Of a stretch of 35,144 nt of DNA, positions 28,001-34,999 are shown one piece after another. The first letter of the stretch is position 1, and every line of letters starts with the position of its first letter. Position numbers and translations under genes: made by a program. The notes beneath the pieces are model-generated. The model did no database searches. It was given only the letters and a program-made list of their open reading frames with translations, and had not been told where the DNA came from. Origin of the DNA: an uncultured Bacteroidia bacterium (GTDB lineage: Bacteria; Bacteroidota; Bacteroidia; JANWVE01); NCBI GenBank assembly GCA_938028625.1, contig CALIZB010000022.1:1-35144 (forward strand), in the 5' to 3' direction.

Positions 28001-28276
28001 ATGATGTGCGTTCTATACTGTGATAAATAAAAGTTTTGTACTTAACCAAAAATAATTTTAGTATGAAAAATATCAAAAAACCTTATTCGTTCATTGAGCG
28101 TGGTTCGGCTATATGCTTACCAACCGAAGCCGAAATGCAAATAATGTTAAGTACATACATTTGAGTTACACACCAACCTTATGCATAACAGTGTAAGCAA
28201 AACATGGAAAAAACGCCTAAAAATTACCTACCAGAACCTAAAAAGTTACAAAATATCAAAAAATGTTGCTTTATGC
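28001..28276. other. Intergenic region upstream of smc; short frames only
   Basis: No established gene. Two plus-strand frames of 33 codons (28063-28161, start MKNIKKPYSF) and 37 codons (28204-28314, start MEKTPKNYLPEP) exist, without visible family features. The first contains a stretch (TCATTGAGCGTGGTTCGGC, 28091-28109) resembling repeat sequence at 34595-34613, so it is probably repeat debris. Confidence 0.35.
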
Positions 28277-28306
28277 TTGACAGTTCAAGTATGTTTTATA
28301 TTTTTG
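28277..28306 (+). promoter_or_regulatory. Promoter candidate for a small transcript
   Basis: TTG (28277-28279), a 19-base gap and TATTTTTG (28299-28306) match the Bacteroidota promoter at normal spacing. Transcription would start near 28313, just before two stem-loops. Confidence 0.45.
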
Positions 28307-28324
28307 CAAAAAGTTAAAATAAAA

Positions 28325-28346
28325 ACGCTGTACTAATGTACAGCGT
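28325..28346 (-). terminator. Hairpin with T-run on the minus strand
   Basis: ACGCTGTAC-TAAT-GTACAGCGT is a perfect palindrome. On the minus strand it is followed by TTTTTATTTT, the form of an intrinsic terminator. No minus-strand gene lies upstream, so it may insulate smc from antisense transcription or act as a 5' hairpin of the plus-strand RNA. Confidence 0.5.
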
Positions 28347-28380
28347 AACCACCAAATCAAATCATAAAACCAATGAAACT

Positions 28381-28444
28381 ACCTACTTCATTGAATAACA
28401 AAGTTTATGCCATTTAGTTCAATGTTGTAGGTGCTTTTTGTTTT
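28381..28444 (+). terminator. Terminator-like hairpin upstream of the efflux operon
   Basis: ACCTAC-TTC-ATTGAA pairs with TTCAAT-GTT-GTAGGT around a 22-base loop, with an internal three-base mismatch. It is followed by GCTTTTTGTTTT. It would end plus-strand transcripts before the efflux promoter, or act as a conditional attenuator. Confidence 0.5.
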
Positions 28445-28457
28445 CAATAAGTTTATA

Positions 28458-28487
28458 TTGTTTTTTCAGGGATAAAACCTATTTTTG
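28458..28487 (+). promoter_or_regulatory. Promoter of the heavy-metal efflux operon
   Basis: TTG (28458-28460), a 19-base gap and TATTTTTG (28480-28487) form a promoter of canonical spacing. The predicted start falls at or next to the GTG at 28493. Confidence 0.55.
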
Positions 28488-28492
28488 CAAAA

Positions 28493-28864
28493 GTGAAAGC
28501 AATAACCCTGTTTTTGTTAGGCTGTTTTATGATGGTGCATACCGAATTGCACGAACTTTTTACTGTTCCTGCATTGGTTATTCATTATATCAGTCATAAA
28601 AAAGAAAACCCTAAACAAAATATTTTTGATTTCTTGGCAGAACACTATTCCACAGAAGCAGACCATTCTCACCCCGAAGAACATAAAAAACTCCCTTTCA
28701 AACATGACAAAATCATAAACAATATCTTGCTGACTGTTTTACATAATTTTAACCTTGCCTTTAATTACTATCTTACAGCAAAAATAGCCATTTTTATTAT
28801 TCATACAGCTAATTTACCTAATTTCATGGTGGGTAAAGGAATATGGCAACCCCCAAAAATGTAG
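28493..28864 (+). CDS. Small His-rich membrane protein of a metal-efflux operon
   Basis: A 123-residue protein with an N-terminal hydrophobic segment, a His/Glu-rich middle (EADHSHPEEHKKLPFKH, about residues 58-74) and a second hydrophobic segment (NAFNYYLTAK region to IIHTANL). Small proteins with a similar HxxLPFK motif occur directly before CzcA/CusA genes in Bacteroidota, as I recall; they have no agreed name. The His cluster suggests metal binding at the periplasmic face, perhaps sensing or delivering ions to the pump. The start is a GTG five bases after the -7 box; in-frame ATGs at codons 13 and 14 are alternatives. The CzcA gene starts 144 bases after the stop. Confidence 0.65.
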   Translation: MKAITLFLLGCFMMVHTELHELFTVPALVIHYISHKKENPKQNIFDFLAEHYSTEADHSHPEEHKKLPFKHDKIINNILLTVLHNFNLAFNYYLTAKIAIFIIHTANLPNFMVGKGIWQPPKM

Positions 28865-29008
28865 TGTATTTTTTAAGACCCTTGTAATACATGCTCGCAT
28901 TCATGCGTCTGTAAAAATATTCATGTTTTATCTTTCTTAGTTCTTATAACCTTGCAAAAGGATTATCTAATCTGCCAATTCCTAAATTGTAAAATACTAA
29001 TTCCCATC

Positions 29009-32000
29009 ATGTTATCCAAAATCATAGAATTTTCTGTAAAAAACAAATTGTTAGTTATTGTAGGAGTACTTGGACTGATTCTGTACGGAAGCTACGAACT
29101 GACCAAACTCCCCATAGATGCTGTACCTGATATTACTAATAATCAAGTACAGATAATTACGGTAGCCCCCGCTTTTGGCGCCCCAGACATAGAACGTTTA
29201 ATTACTTTTCCCGTAGAACAAAACTGCCGCAATATCCCGAATATTGTAGAAATGCGAAGTTTCTCACGTTTTGGTTTATCTTTGGTTACTATTGTATTCA
29301 GTGATGATACAGATATTTACTGGGCAAGGCAACAAGTTAATGAAAGATTAAAATCTGCTCAAAAAGAAATTCCTGACGGCATAGGTACGCCTGAACTCGC
29401 ACCCGTAACTACAGGATTAGGCGAAATTTATCAATATCTTGTAAAACCCAAAAAGGGTTATGAAAACAAATACTCTCTCACAGATTTGCGTACTGTTCAA
29501 GATTGGATAGTCAAAAGACAATTAGCAGGTATAAAAGGTGTAGCTGATGTGAGTAGTTTTGGTGGTTTAGTCAAACAATACGAAATTGCTATTGAACCCC
29601 AAAAATTAAATGCTTATCAACTCTCTATCAGTGATATTTTTGAAGCATTGCATAAAAATAACGAAAACACTGGTGGTGCATACATAGAAAAAAATAACAC
29701 GGTTTTATTTATCAGAACAGAAGGTTTAGTAAAGTCTGTAGATGAAATAAAGCAAATTGTAATCAAAAATACGCAAGAAGGAATACCTGTTTTAATTAGA
29801 GATGTTGCAGAAGTAAAAATAGAAAATGCTATACGATATGGTGCATTATCTTACAACAATGAGAGTGAAGTAGCAGGTGGCATTGTGATGATGCTCAAAG
29901 GAGAAAATAGCAGTCAAGTAATCAAAAATGTAAAAAAACGCATAAACGAAATACAAAATAATCTGCCTAAAGGTTTAGAAATTGTACCTTACTTGGACAG
30001 AACAAAAATGGTTAACGCCGCTATTCATACGGTATCCACAAATTTAATGGAAGGCGCATTGATTGTAGTATTTGTACTAGTATTGTTTCTAGGCAATTTA
30101 AGGGCAGGGATAATTGTAGCTTCGGTCATACCGCTTTCTATGCTTTTTGCCATAATAATGATGAATACTTTTGGTGTAAGTGGTAATTTAATGAGTTTAG
30201 GTGCATTAGACTTTGGATTGATTGTAGATGGTGCTGTGATTATTGTAGAAGCTGTTTTACATGGTTTAACCCATAACAAAATTTTTACACAGCTTACTAA
30301 AATCACTCAGCAAGATATGGATAATGAAGTAAAACATACTTCTACACGTATGATGAACGTAGCTGTATTCGGACAGATGATTATTCTCATTGTGTATTTA
30401 CCTATATTCACTTTGCAAGGTATAGAAGGCAAAATGTTCAAACCGATGGCACAAACTGTAATATTTTGCCTTATAGGCGCATTTATTTTGTCTTTAACCT
30501 ATATTCCTGTAATAACTTCTTTACTCATTTCCAAAAAGATACAAAGTAAAATCACTTTTTCAGACCGTATGATTGCATGGATAAGTAAACAACATCAAAA
30601 ACTATTACGGGCTTGCTTACGATTTTCTGTGCTTTCTGTGAGTGTAGTATTTACTTTATTTGTTTTTTCTGTGTTTTTACTTACTCGTTTGGGGGGAGAG
30701 TTTATTCCACAAATTCCCGAAGGCGATTTTGCCGTAGAAACTCGCTTGCTTAAAGGAAGTAACCTAAATACTTCGGTACAAACTTGCCAGCAGTCTGCCA
30801 AAGTATTATTAGAACATTTTCCTGAAATTGAAAGAATTGTGAGCAAAACAGGAAGCGGCGAAATTCCCACAGACCCTATGCCAATGGAAAATTCAGATAT
30901 GATGGTTATCTTGAAAGACAGACGAGAATGGAAATCTGCAAAAACATGGGAAGAACTTTCTGAAAAAATGCACCAAACTTTACAAAATAATATACCTGGT
31001 GTATCTTACAGTTTTCAGTATCCCGTAGCTATGCGATTTAATGAACTAATGACAGGCGCAAAACAAGATGTAGTCTGTAAAATATTCGGTGAAAATTTGG
31101 ATACTCTCTCTAAATACGCAAAAAAACTTGGGCATATCGTATCAGACATCAAAGGAGTAGAAGATATTTATGTAGAACCCATAGACGGCTTACCACAATT
31201 GATTATTACCTATAAACGTGAAGAACTCGCCAAATATGGTATTGCTGTTCAGCAGGTCAATCAAATTATCAATACAGCTTTGGCAGGACAGAGTGCAGGT
31301 ATGTTATATCAAGATGAAAAACGGTTTGATATTGTAGTACGCTTAGCCAAAGAACAAAAACAAAATATAGAGCAGATTAAGAACTTACTTGTTAATACTC
31401 CAAACGGCACACAAATTCCTTTATACCAAATTGCTGACATAGCAATTAAAGAAAGTGTTAATCAAATTCAGCGGGAAGAAGCTAAACGCAGAATTATTGT
31501 GGGCTTTAATGTAAAAAACCGCGATGTACAAAGTGTAGTACAGGAAGTTCAGCAGGATGTACAACAAAAATTAAAACTGCCCTCAGGCTATCATATTACT
31601 TACGGTGGTGCATTTGAAAATTTAGAAAGTGCTAAAAAACGGCTTATGTTAGCTGTTCCTGTGGCTTTATTACTGATATTCTTTTTGTTATACATGACTT
31701 TTAATTCGGTAAAACAAGCAATTTTAGTGTATTCAGCTATACCGCTTTCGGCTATTGGAGGGATATTCTTTTTATACATGCGAGGTATGCCGTTTAGTGT
31801 AAGCGCAGGAGTAGGTTTTATTGCACTTTTTGGAGTAGCTGTACTTAATGGTATTGTTTTGATTAGTGAATTTAACCGTTTGAAGAACAGTGGTATACAA
31901 GATATTTATACCATTGTTCAGGAAGGTACACACATACGCCTGCGCCCCGTACTTATGACGGCTTTTGTAGCTTCGTTAGGTTTTTTACCTATGGCAATCA

Positions 32001-33358
32001 GCAAAGGTGCAGGGGCAGAAGTCCAAAAACCATTAGCTACCGTAGTTATTGGAGGTTTGCTTACCGCAACATTTTTAACTTTAGTTATTTTACCTGTACT
32101 CTATATATGGGCAGAGAAATTTACACTCAAAAAGCACGCAAAAACTGCATCTATATTCATTATAGGACTATTATTTTCACAAAACACAAACGCCCAAACC
32201 CCTATCTCACTCAAAAATGCCATAGATACTGCTCTAAAACATAATCCTCTAATACAAGCTCAAAATTTGCAAACCGAATATCAAAAATCTTTGCTTAAAG
32301 CCAGCTATGATATTCCTAAAACTAATTTTTCTTTTGAATATGGGCAGATAAACTCCATTTATCAGGATAATCGGCTTTCGGTTATGCAAAGTACGGCTTT
32401 TCCTACCTTGTACAGCAAACAAAAAAATCTTGAAAAGATACAGACCCAAGAGCAAGCCCTAAAAACCGAAGTTGTCAAAAAAGAAATTACACGCAAAATA
32501 AGCGAAGTATTTTATCAGCTCGCGTACCTGTATCAAAAACGGATTTTATTACAAAAAATAGATACTTTACTCAATGAAGCCAATCAAAGAATACAGCTCA
32601 AATTTACCAAAGGCGATGCGAATACATTAGAAAAAACTACCGCAGAACTACAAAAATACACAATACAAATGCAATTACAGGACGTTGAAAACGAAATTCA
32701 GAACACTCAAAAAACTTTTCAGTATTGGCTGAATAGCTCACAAAACTATATTCCTGAACCTGTTTCCTGGGCAAATACTCCTATTTTAAGCCCGCAGGAT
32801 ACAGCAAAATTACACACACACGCACAAATACAAGTATTACAACAATCTCTGCGTACCGCACAGGCTAAAATCAAAATAGAAAAACACAAGTTTTTACCTG
32901 ACTTCTACGCGGGGTTTTTCAATCAGACTTTGCAAGGTATGGGTGCAGATGATAAATTCTATACGCGCAGCACACGTTTCACTTCATTTCAGATAGGAAT
33001 AGGTATTCCTCTTTTTTATACTGCTCAAAAAGCAAAGCTTAATGCGGCAAAAATACAATACCGTATTACACAGCAAAAATACAGTATCGGCATAAAAGTA
33101 TTTCAAAATGAATACAATATAGCATTCAATACATATCAACGAACTCTGCAAAAAGTACGCACCTGGAACGAAAATATCCTGCCCAAAACAAAAATCATGC
33201 TCAGCCAAGCTAATCAGCAATTAAATGCAGGAGCAGTAAATTATACAGAATGGGTTATATTAGTACAACAAGCTACTCAAATGCAGTTAAACTATTTAGA
33301 GGATGTCAGAACATTATACTTTTCTTTAACCGAATTACAATACTATCAAACGAATTAA
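29009..33358 (+). CDS. czcA: CzcA/CusA-type heavy-metal RND pump fused to a TolC-like outer-membrane channel
   Basis: Proton-driven efflux of divalent or monovalent metal ions across the envelope. Residues 1 to about 1040 are a full HME-RND pump: opening SKIIEFSVKNKLLVIVGV, LPIDAVPDITNNQVQ, and helix-4 acidic residues in LDFGLIVDGAVIIVE that carry protons. After the last helix comes a signal-peptide-like segment (about 1043-1063, ending NTNAQ), then a TolC/CzcC-like region of about 385 residues with long helices (NAIDTALKHNPLIQAQNL) and repeats. The ATG at 29009 is used because the pump begins there; the track's earlier start adds 19 odd residues. The metal cannot be assigned with certainty. 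The adaptor gene follows after four bases. Confidence 0.93.
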   Translation: MLSKIIEFSVKNKLLVIVGVLGLILYGSYELTKLPIDAVPDITNNQVQIITVAPAFGAPDIERLITFPVEQNCRNIPNIVEMRSFSRFGLSLVTIVFSDDTDIYWARQQVNERLKSAQKEIPDGIGTPELAPVTTGLGEIYQYLVKPKKGYENKYSLTDLRTVQDWIVKRQLAGIKGVADVSSFGGLVKQYEIAIEPQKLNAYQLSISDIFEALHKNNENTGGAYIEKNNTVLFIRTEGLVKSVDEIKQIVIKNTQEGIPVLIRDVAEVKIENAIRYGALSYNNESEVAGGIVMMLKGENSSQVIKNVKKRINEIQNNLPKGLEIVPYLDRTKMVNAAIHTVSTNLMEGALIVVFVLVLFLGNLRAGIIVASVIPLSMLFAIIMMNTFGVSGNLMSLGALDFGLIVDGAVIIVEAVLHGLTHNKIFTQLTKITQQDMDNEVKHTSTRMMNVAVFGQMIILIVYLPIFTLQGIEGKMFKPMAQTVIFCLIGAFILSLTYIPVITSLLISKKIQSKITFSDRMIAWISKQHQKLLRACLRFSVLSVSVVFTLFVFSVFLLTRLGGEFIPQIPEGDFAVETRLLKGSNLNTSVQTCQQSAKVLLEHFPEIERIVSKTGSGEIPTDPMPMENSDMMVILKDRREWKSAKTWEELSEKMHQTLQNNIPGVSYSFQYPVAMRFNELMTGAKQDVVCKIFGENLDTLSKYAKKLGHIVSDIKGVEDIYVEPIDGLPQLIITYKREELAKYGIAVQQVNQIINTALAGQSAGMLYQDEKRFDIVVRLAKEQKQNIEQIKNLLVNTPNGTQIPLYQIADIAIKESVNQIQREEAKRRIIVGFNVKNRDVQSVVQEVQQDVQQKLKLPSGYHITYGGAFENLESAKKRLMLAVPVALLLIFFLLYMTFNSVKQAILVYSAIPLSAIGGIFFLYMRGMPFSVSAGVGFIALFGVAVLNGIVLISEFNRLKNSGIQDIYTIVQEGTHIRLRPVLMTAFVASLGFLPMAISKGAGAEVQKPLATVVIGGLLTATFLTLVILPVLYIWAEKFTLKKHAKTASIFIIGLLFSQNTNAQTPISLKNAIDTALKHNPLIQAQNLQTEYQKSLLKASYDIPKTNFSFEYGQINSIYQDNRLSVMQSTAFPTLYSKQKNLEKIQTQEQALKTEVVKKEITRKISEVFYQLAYLYQKRILLQKIDTLLNEANQRIQLKFTKGDANTLEKTTAELQKYTIQMQLQDVENEIQNTQKTFQYWLNSSQNYIPEPVSWANTPILSPQDTAKLHTHAQIQVLQQSLRTAQAKIKIEKHKFLPDFYAGFFNQTLQGMGADDKFYTRSTRFTSFQIGIGIPLFYTAQKAKLNAAKIQYRITQQKYSIGIKVFQNEYNIAFNTYQRTLQKVRTWNENILPKTKIMLSQANQQLNAGAVNYTEWVILVQQATQMQLNYLEDVRTLYFSLTELQYYQTN

Positions 33359-34522: not shown

Positions 34523-34644
34523 TTTGGGCGTGTCTTTCACTGCGTTCAGGTCAGCATGATGAGTGCCACATAACGCGGTGATTGAGCAACACCGTCATTG
34601 AGTGGTTTCGGCATAGTTCGGTAAGCTCACTAAATGTATGCGAA
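34523..34644 (+). repeat. GC-richer interspersed repeat, copy 2
   Basis: Starts TTTTGGGCGTGTCTTTCAC, 18 of 19 bases identical to the repeat copy after corA, and continues GTTCAGGTCAGCATGAT (closely matching GTTCAGGTCGGCGTGCT there), with the CTTCGGCAAGCTCAGG section missing. The rest (GCGGTGATTGAGCAACACCG, TCATTGAGTGGTTTCGGC) is related to fragments elsewhere in the window. It directly borders the transposase remnant. Confidence 0.55.
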
Positions 34645-34653
34645 GTATTAACA

Positions 34654-34999
34654 AAAATAACCTGCTTTCATTGTCATAGTACGAAAGTAGTTAAAAATGG
34701 TCATAAAAAAGATGGGACACAAAATTTTTTGTGTAAATCTTGTCATAAACGGTTCAAAAGCTATACAAAATGCTTAAAAATCTTCAAATTGATGAGTATT
34801 GTAACGGATAACAGGACTGTTTTTACTTCAAGTATTTGCAAAGGAAAATTACCAAGTGGCAAAACATCTTACTCGTGCTATTGAAGGGGTCAATAATGCT
34901 TTAAGGATAAGAAATAGACGCCTTGTACGAAAAACTACTTGCTTTTCTAGAAAAGATGAGTGCCACGAAGCCACTATGGTTCGGCAGGTGATACAGTGA
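34654..34999 (+). pseudogene. Decayed IS1-family transposase
   Basis: Two pieces of one transposase in different frames. The 5' piece (about 34654-34761) encodes an InsA-like zinc ribbon, CFHCHSTKVVKNGHKKDG followed by FLCKSCHKRFKS. The 3' piece (about 34829-34999, frame shifted) encodes an InsB-like C-terminus, AIEGVNNALRIRNRRLVRKT followed by TCFSRKDE. The catalytic middle of the protein is missing, so it cannot transpose. The track's 100-codon ORF from 34582 joins the zinc ribbon to unrelated repeat sequence and is not a real gene. A 12-base direct repeat (GATGAGTGCCAC) occurs at 34558-34569 and 34955-34966. Confidence 0.7.

Follow-up and report, generated by a model that had tools for sequence, protein, structure and literature searches.

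A probable genus-restricted small RNA gene next to a metal-efflux operon in an uncultured Bacteroidia bacterium

The intergenic element at positions 28277–28444 of the window (the whole stretch of DNA analyzed, 35,144 nucleotides, which is contig 22 of a 2.9-Mb genome) is probably a separate, trans-encoded non-coding small RNA (sRNA) gene on the + strand, with a transcript of ~120–130 nt that would act by base-pairing and that appears, so far, to be restricted to its genus. The original prediction had offered two readings, a leader-peptide attenuator of the metal-efflux (czc) operon downstream and a separate sRNA. A conserved first stem, a promoter of its own and a different neighbor in the two other genomes of the genus used for comparison (G001 and G002) support the second, and on this evidence the czc operon is a neighbor of the sRNA and not its partner. 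The parts of the element and the adjacent promoter are as follows.

28277..28306, + strand: putative sRNA promoter TTG-N19-TATTTTTG, Bacteroidota −33/−7 type, perfect match
28325..28346, + strand: hairpin 1, ACGCTGTAC-TAAT-GTACAGCGT, perfect 9 bp, −13.9 kcal/mol
28349..28374, + strand: linker CCACCAAATCAAATCATAAAACCAAT, 26 bases with no G on this strand, 24 of them invariant across the three genomes
28373..28417, + strand: 14-codon frame MKLPTSLNNKVYAI, from ATG at 28373 to TAG at 28417, judged not to be a gene
28398..28413, + strand: second conserved block ACAAAGTTTATGCCAT, 16 bases within the loop of hairpin 2, 14 of them invariant across the three genomes
28379..28444, + strand: hairpin 2 (28379–28433) with the T-rich tail CTTTTTGTTTT, −18.2 kcal/mol, z = −4.7
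28458..28487, + strand: czc operon promoter TTG-N19-TATTTTTG, perfect match, 3' of the terminator

The anatomy proposed in the original prediction is borne out in its positions: the promoter, the perfect hairpin, the terminator-like hairpin with its tail and the second promoter just downstream are found as listed, and the main 3' arm of hairpin 2 starts at 28418, immediately 3' of the short frame's stop codon. The frame itself is present as described but is nothing special. The promoter at 28277 is better described as a Bacteroidota −33/−7 promoter than as a plain sigma-70 site; TTG-N19-TAnnTTTG is the −33/−7 consensus reported for Bacteroides (PMC7366714), and two perfect copies are present here against a chance expectation of 0.08 per 500 nt (+ strand, this composition). 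A plain sigma-70 scan alone gave sites not above shuffles (4 vs. 5.2). Transcription of the sRNA would be expected to start near 28312–28314, and in this genome hairpin 2 with its tail is likely its intrinsic terminator. The segment from 28312 to 28444 folds at −35.8 kcal/mol, compared with −17.0 ± 2.9 kcal/mol for shuffled sequences (z = −6.5, with 0 of 200 shuffles as good).

A DNA search of the genus found the element once in each relative (E = 1e-15 and 4e-9), and with a covariance model built from all three sequences the homologs score 106–110 bits. In both G001 and G002, hairpin 1, the 26-base linker and the 16-base block recur directly 3' of nadB (L-aspartate oxidase; named by eye from the protein sequence). 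These three are the conserved parts in the alignment of the three genomes, in which the linker is near-invariant and the flanks diverge. In stem 1, G001 has both bases exchanged at three pairs and an A-C mismatch at one, and 96% of cells are paired across the three genomes; among these three sequences the two-sided changes are equaled by 17 of 500 shuffles. The conservation check of the two stems proposed with the original prediction came out in part, stem 1 being kept with two-sided changes and stem 2 not being kept: the stem of hairpin 2 was not found in G001 or G002, where its arms are not conserved, nor was a good + sense terminator found at the element in either genome. The ATG of the 14-codon frame is ATA in both relatives and the sequence downstream of it diverges, and no reading frame is conserved across the three genomes. 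The homologous promoter of G001, TTG-N19-TATATTTG, is perfect and stands at nearly the same spacing to the stem as here, while G002 has no recognizable promoter at the homologous place. What has been conserved appears to be a transcription unit.

Comparison of NadB makes G001 and G002 sisters and this genome the outgroup, and since the promoter is perfect both here and in G001 it was probably ancestral and lost in G002. In G002 any RNA of the element would belong to the 3' end of the nadB message and would have to be processed out of it. One could extend this to the ancestor and suppose a regulatory RNA derived from the nadB 3' UTR that moved in this genome, as nadB adjoins the element in both relatives and G002 has no separate promoter for it. 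The perfect promoter in G001 and here speaks against such an origin, and the nadB locus of this genome offers no comparison, the gene being cut by a contig end (L054) after ~190 codons; because its 3' end is absent from the assembly, the missing part may hold another copy of the element. We regard a nadB-derived ancestor as improbable.

The change of neighbors between species, together with dispersed repeats close by in all three genomes, could also be taken to mean that the conserved sequence is a DNA element, for example the end of a small mobile repeat, and not an RNA. There is very little chance of this, given that the element is single-copy in each genome (the nadB 3' end of this genome lying outside the assembly), that the two-sided changes in the stem go together with a conserved promoter, and that a search of plasmids and phages for the element returned no copies. 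Among the repeats themselves, the one at 28034–28148 is ~115 bases long, contains GGTTCGGC...GCCGAAGCC and recurs, in whole or in part, on contigs 76, 114, 64, and 3, with 81–96% identity over the matched pieces. G+C-rich repeats of the GGGCGTGCCCCT type adjoin the element in both relatives (L030, 1100–1480; L031, after 1650), and another Bacteroidia genome (L084, 400–1400) has tandem repeat units with TGTCCCGTTAGGGACA palindromes. At 34582–34884 of the window, an InsA-type zinc ribbon is encoded by a short frame that is likely a transposase remnant.

The case for a leader-peptide attenuator, or for another cis-acting leader of czc, comes from the order of the parts in this genome, where the frame's stop directly adjoins the 3' arm of hairpin 2 and a competing hairpin of lower stability (CAATGAA/TTCATTG, −5.1 kcal/mol) can form first. 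A short frame just 5' of a terminator hairpin is also what the element has in common with trp-type leader-peptide attenuators; here, however, neither the frame nor the terminator stem is conserved, the peptide contains neither Cys nor His nor any single-residue run, and in the relatives the element is not ahead of the regulated operon but beside nadB. G002 has a czc locus opening with the same gene; a nuoE-like gene precedes it there and the element is missing, and in this genome czc has its own perfect promoter 3' of the terminator. The linker also lacks special complementarity to the czc start regions. With the ATG lost, hairpin 2 unconserved, the element positioned at nadB and the G002 czc locus free of it, neither the leader peptide nor the metal-efflux link survives, so that the attenuator reading appears largely refuted and a cis-acting czc leader of any kind highly doubtful. 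A reading that is plausible from a single genome thus dissolves on comparing two relatives.

Within the czc operon, the −7 box of the promoter ends 5 bases 5' of the GTG of the first gene (28480–28495), so the czc mRNA may be leaderless, or the first gene may start further in. A 123-aa protein is encoded before czcA at 28493–28864; it has no Pfam match, has homologs in 19 of 60 genomes searched and, like the one in G002, carries the motif VHTELHE close to the start. The frame at 29009–33358 combines a CzcA-type efflux pump with an outer-membrane efflux protein domain (ACR_tran + OEP).

The strand of the element deserves separate consideration, as an RNA read from the − strand would cross the conserved blocks and end at stem 1 and a T-run serving as its intrinsic terminator. 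In all three genomes a T-run follows stem 1 on that strand, and a terminator scan flags the site here. The odd pair of G001 is G-U on the − strand and A-C on the + strand, so the G001 stem is fully paired only when read in the − direction, at −14.3 vs. −9.0 kcal/mol on the + strand, and this weaker stem counts against a + strand sRNA. No perfect − strand promoter occurs, however, at 28076–32833 of the window or near the element in the relatives, whereas the + strand promoter just 5' of the stem is conserved here and in G001, and only on the + strand does the linker lack G. G-free sequence is typical of exposed sRNA regions. A − strand transcript therefore seems to us unlikely, and the + strand is favored several times over, though not proved. 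A perfect − strand promoter at 28047–28076 probably serves smc.

As a small RNA on the + strand, the element would be transcribed from its own promoter of the Bacteroidota housekeeping type and, in this genome, would have its 3' end at hairpin 2. The stable 5' hairpin would shield the RNA, leaving the G-free linker, and perhaps the second block, exposed so as to pair with target mRNAs or bind a protein. The linker is unpaired in most folds and is proposed as the pairing or protein-binding region, with base-pairing through this unstructured stretch the likeliest mechanism; we infer the transcription, strand, ends and base-pairing action from sequence. Complementarity of linker and loop to the start regions of genes in the window gave no special czc match and, elsewhere, weak values uncorrected for multiple testing, and no near-exact complement of the linker (up to 3 mismatches) was found in this genome. 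In all three genomes the linker core AAATCATAAAACCAAT does match, in the same sense and with 1 mismatch, the bases just 5' of a gldL-like gene's start codon (gene identified by eye from the protein sequence, not by family search). The sequence AAAATCATAAAATCAAT directly 5' of that start codon is itself conserved in all three (L098, L099, and L100, around 1501). This lead is weak, since overall counts of such 16-mers are not clearly above a reversed control. That the linker is a decoy for mRNA start regions, through which the RNA could vie with mRNAs for ribosomes or a protein, is in our view highly improbable.

In Bacteroides thetaiotaomicron, intergenic sRNAs were counted as high-confidence when they had a promoter of their own and an intrinsic terminator (PMC7366714). 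The element has such a promoter in two of the three genomes, a good terminator in this genome and no clear one in G001 or G002, no conserved coding frame, the start codon being lost in both relatives, and a conserved RNA structure in the two-sided changes of stem 1 among three sequences. Points that weigh against an sRNA are the promoter absent from G002, the lack of good + strand terminators found in the two relatives and a comparison of three sequences only.

Beyond the genus, Rfam gave no match at the gathering score and E ≤ 5, with only chance-level matches below gathering, and the exact linker pattern, searched in 84,980 species genomes and viral contigs, gave besides G001 only unrelated, apparently chance matches. 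When 395 genomes of the class were searched with the covariance model, nothing credible turned up beyond the genus; 18 genomes outside it had matches at E ≤ 0.05, about the chance expectation for 395 genomes, and of the matches inspected one was a convergent-gene stem read backwards, one a tandem repeat and the others without a matching stem. Stem 1 was also considered as a common terminator of the genome and rejected, most other GTACAGCGTTTT sites being apparently coding and without the stem; one similar hairpin lies on contig 111.

Few trans-acting RNAs have been characterized in Bacteroidota, and Hfq is often absent; it was not found in the three genomes of this genus. If the sRNA reading is true, the element is a compact conserved example from an uncultured lineage outside the gut groups. 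Among known RNAs it would come closest in way of working to FopS and GibS, two Bacteroides thetaiotaomicron sRNAs that base-pair with the start regions of mRNAs (PMC11697453). The element has no sequence or Rfam match to either, so that membership of these families is not shown, and unlike them it opens with a hairpin; it also occurs once per genome, compared with 14 copies of FopS. The likeness would be that of a short intergenic Bacteroidota RNA with a housekeeping-type promoter, in which a conserved single-stranded region is followed by an intrinsic terminator, a likely one in this genome (PMC11697453, PMC7366714).
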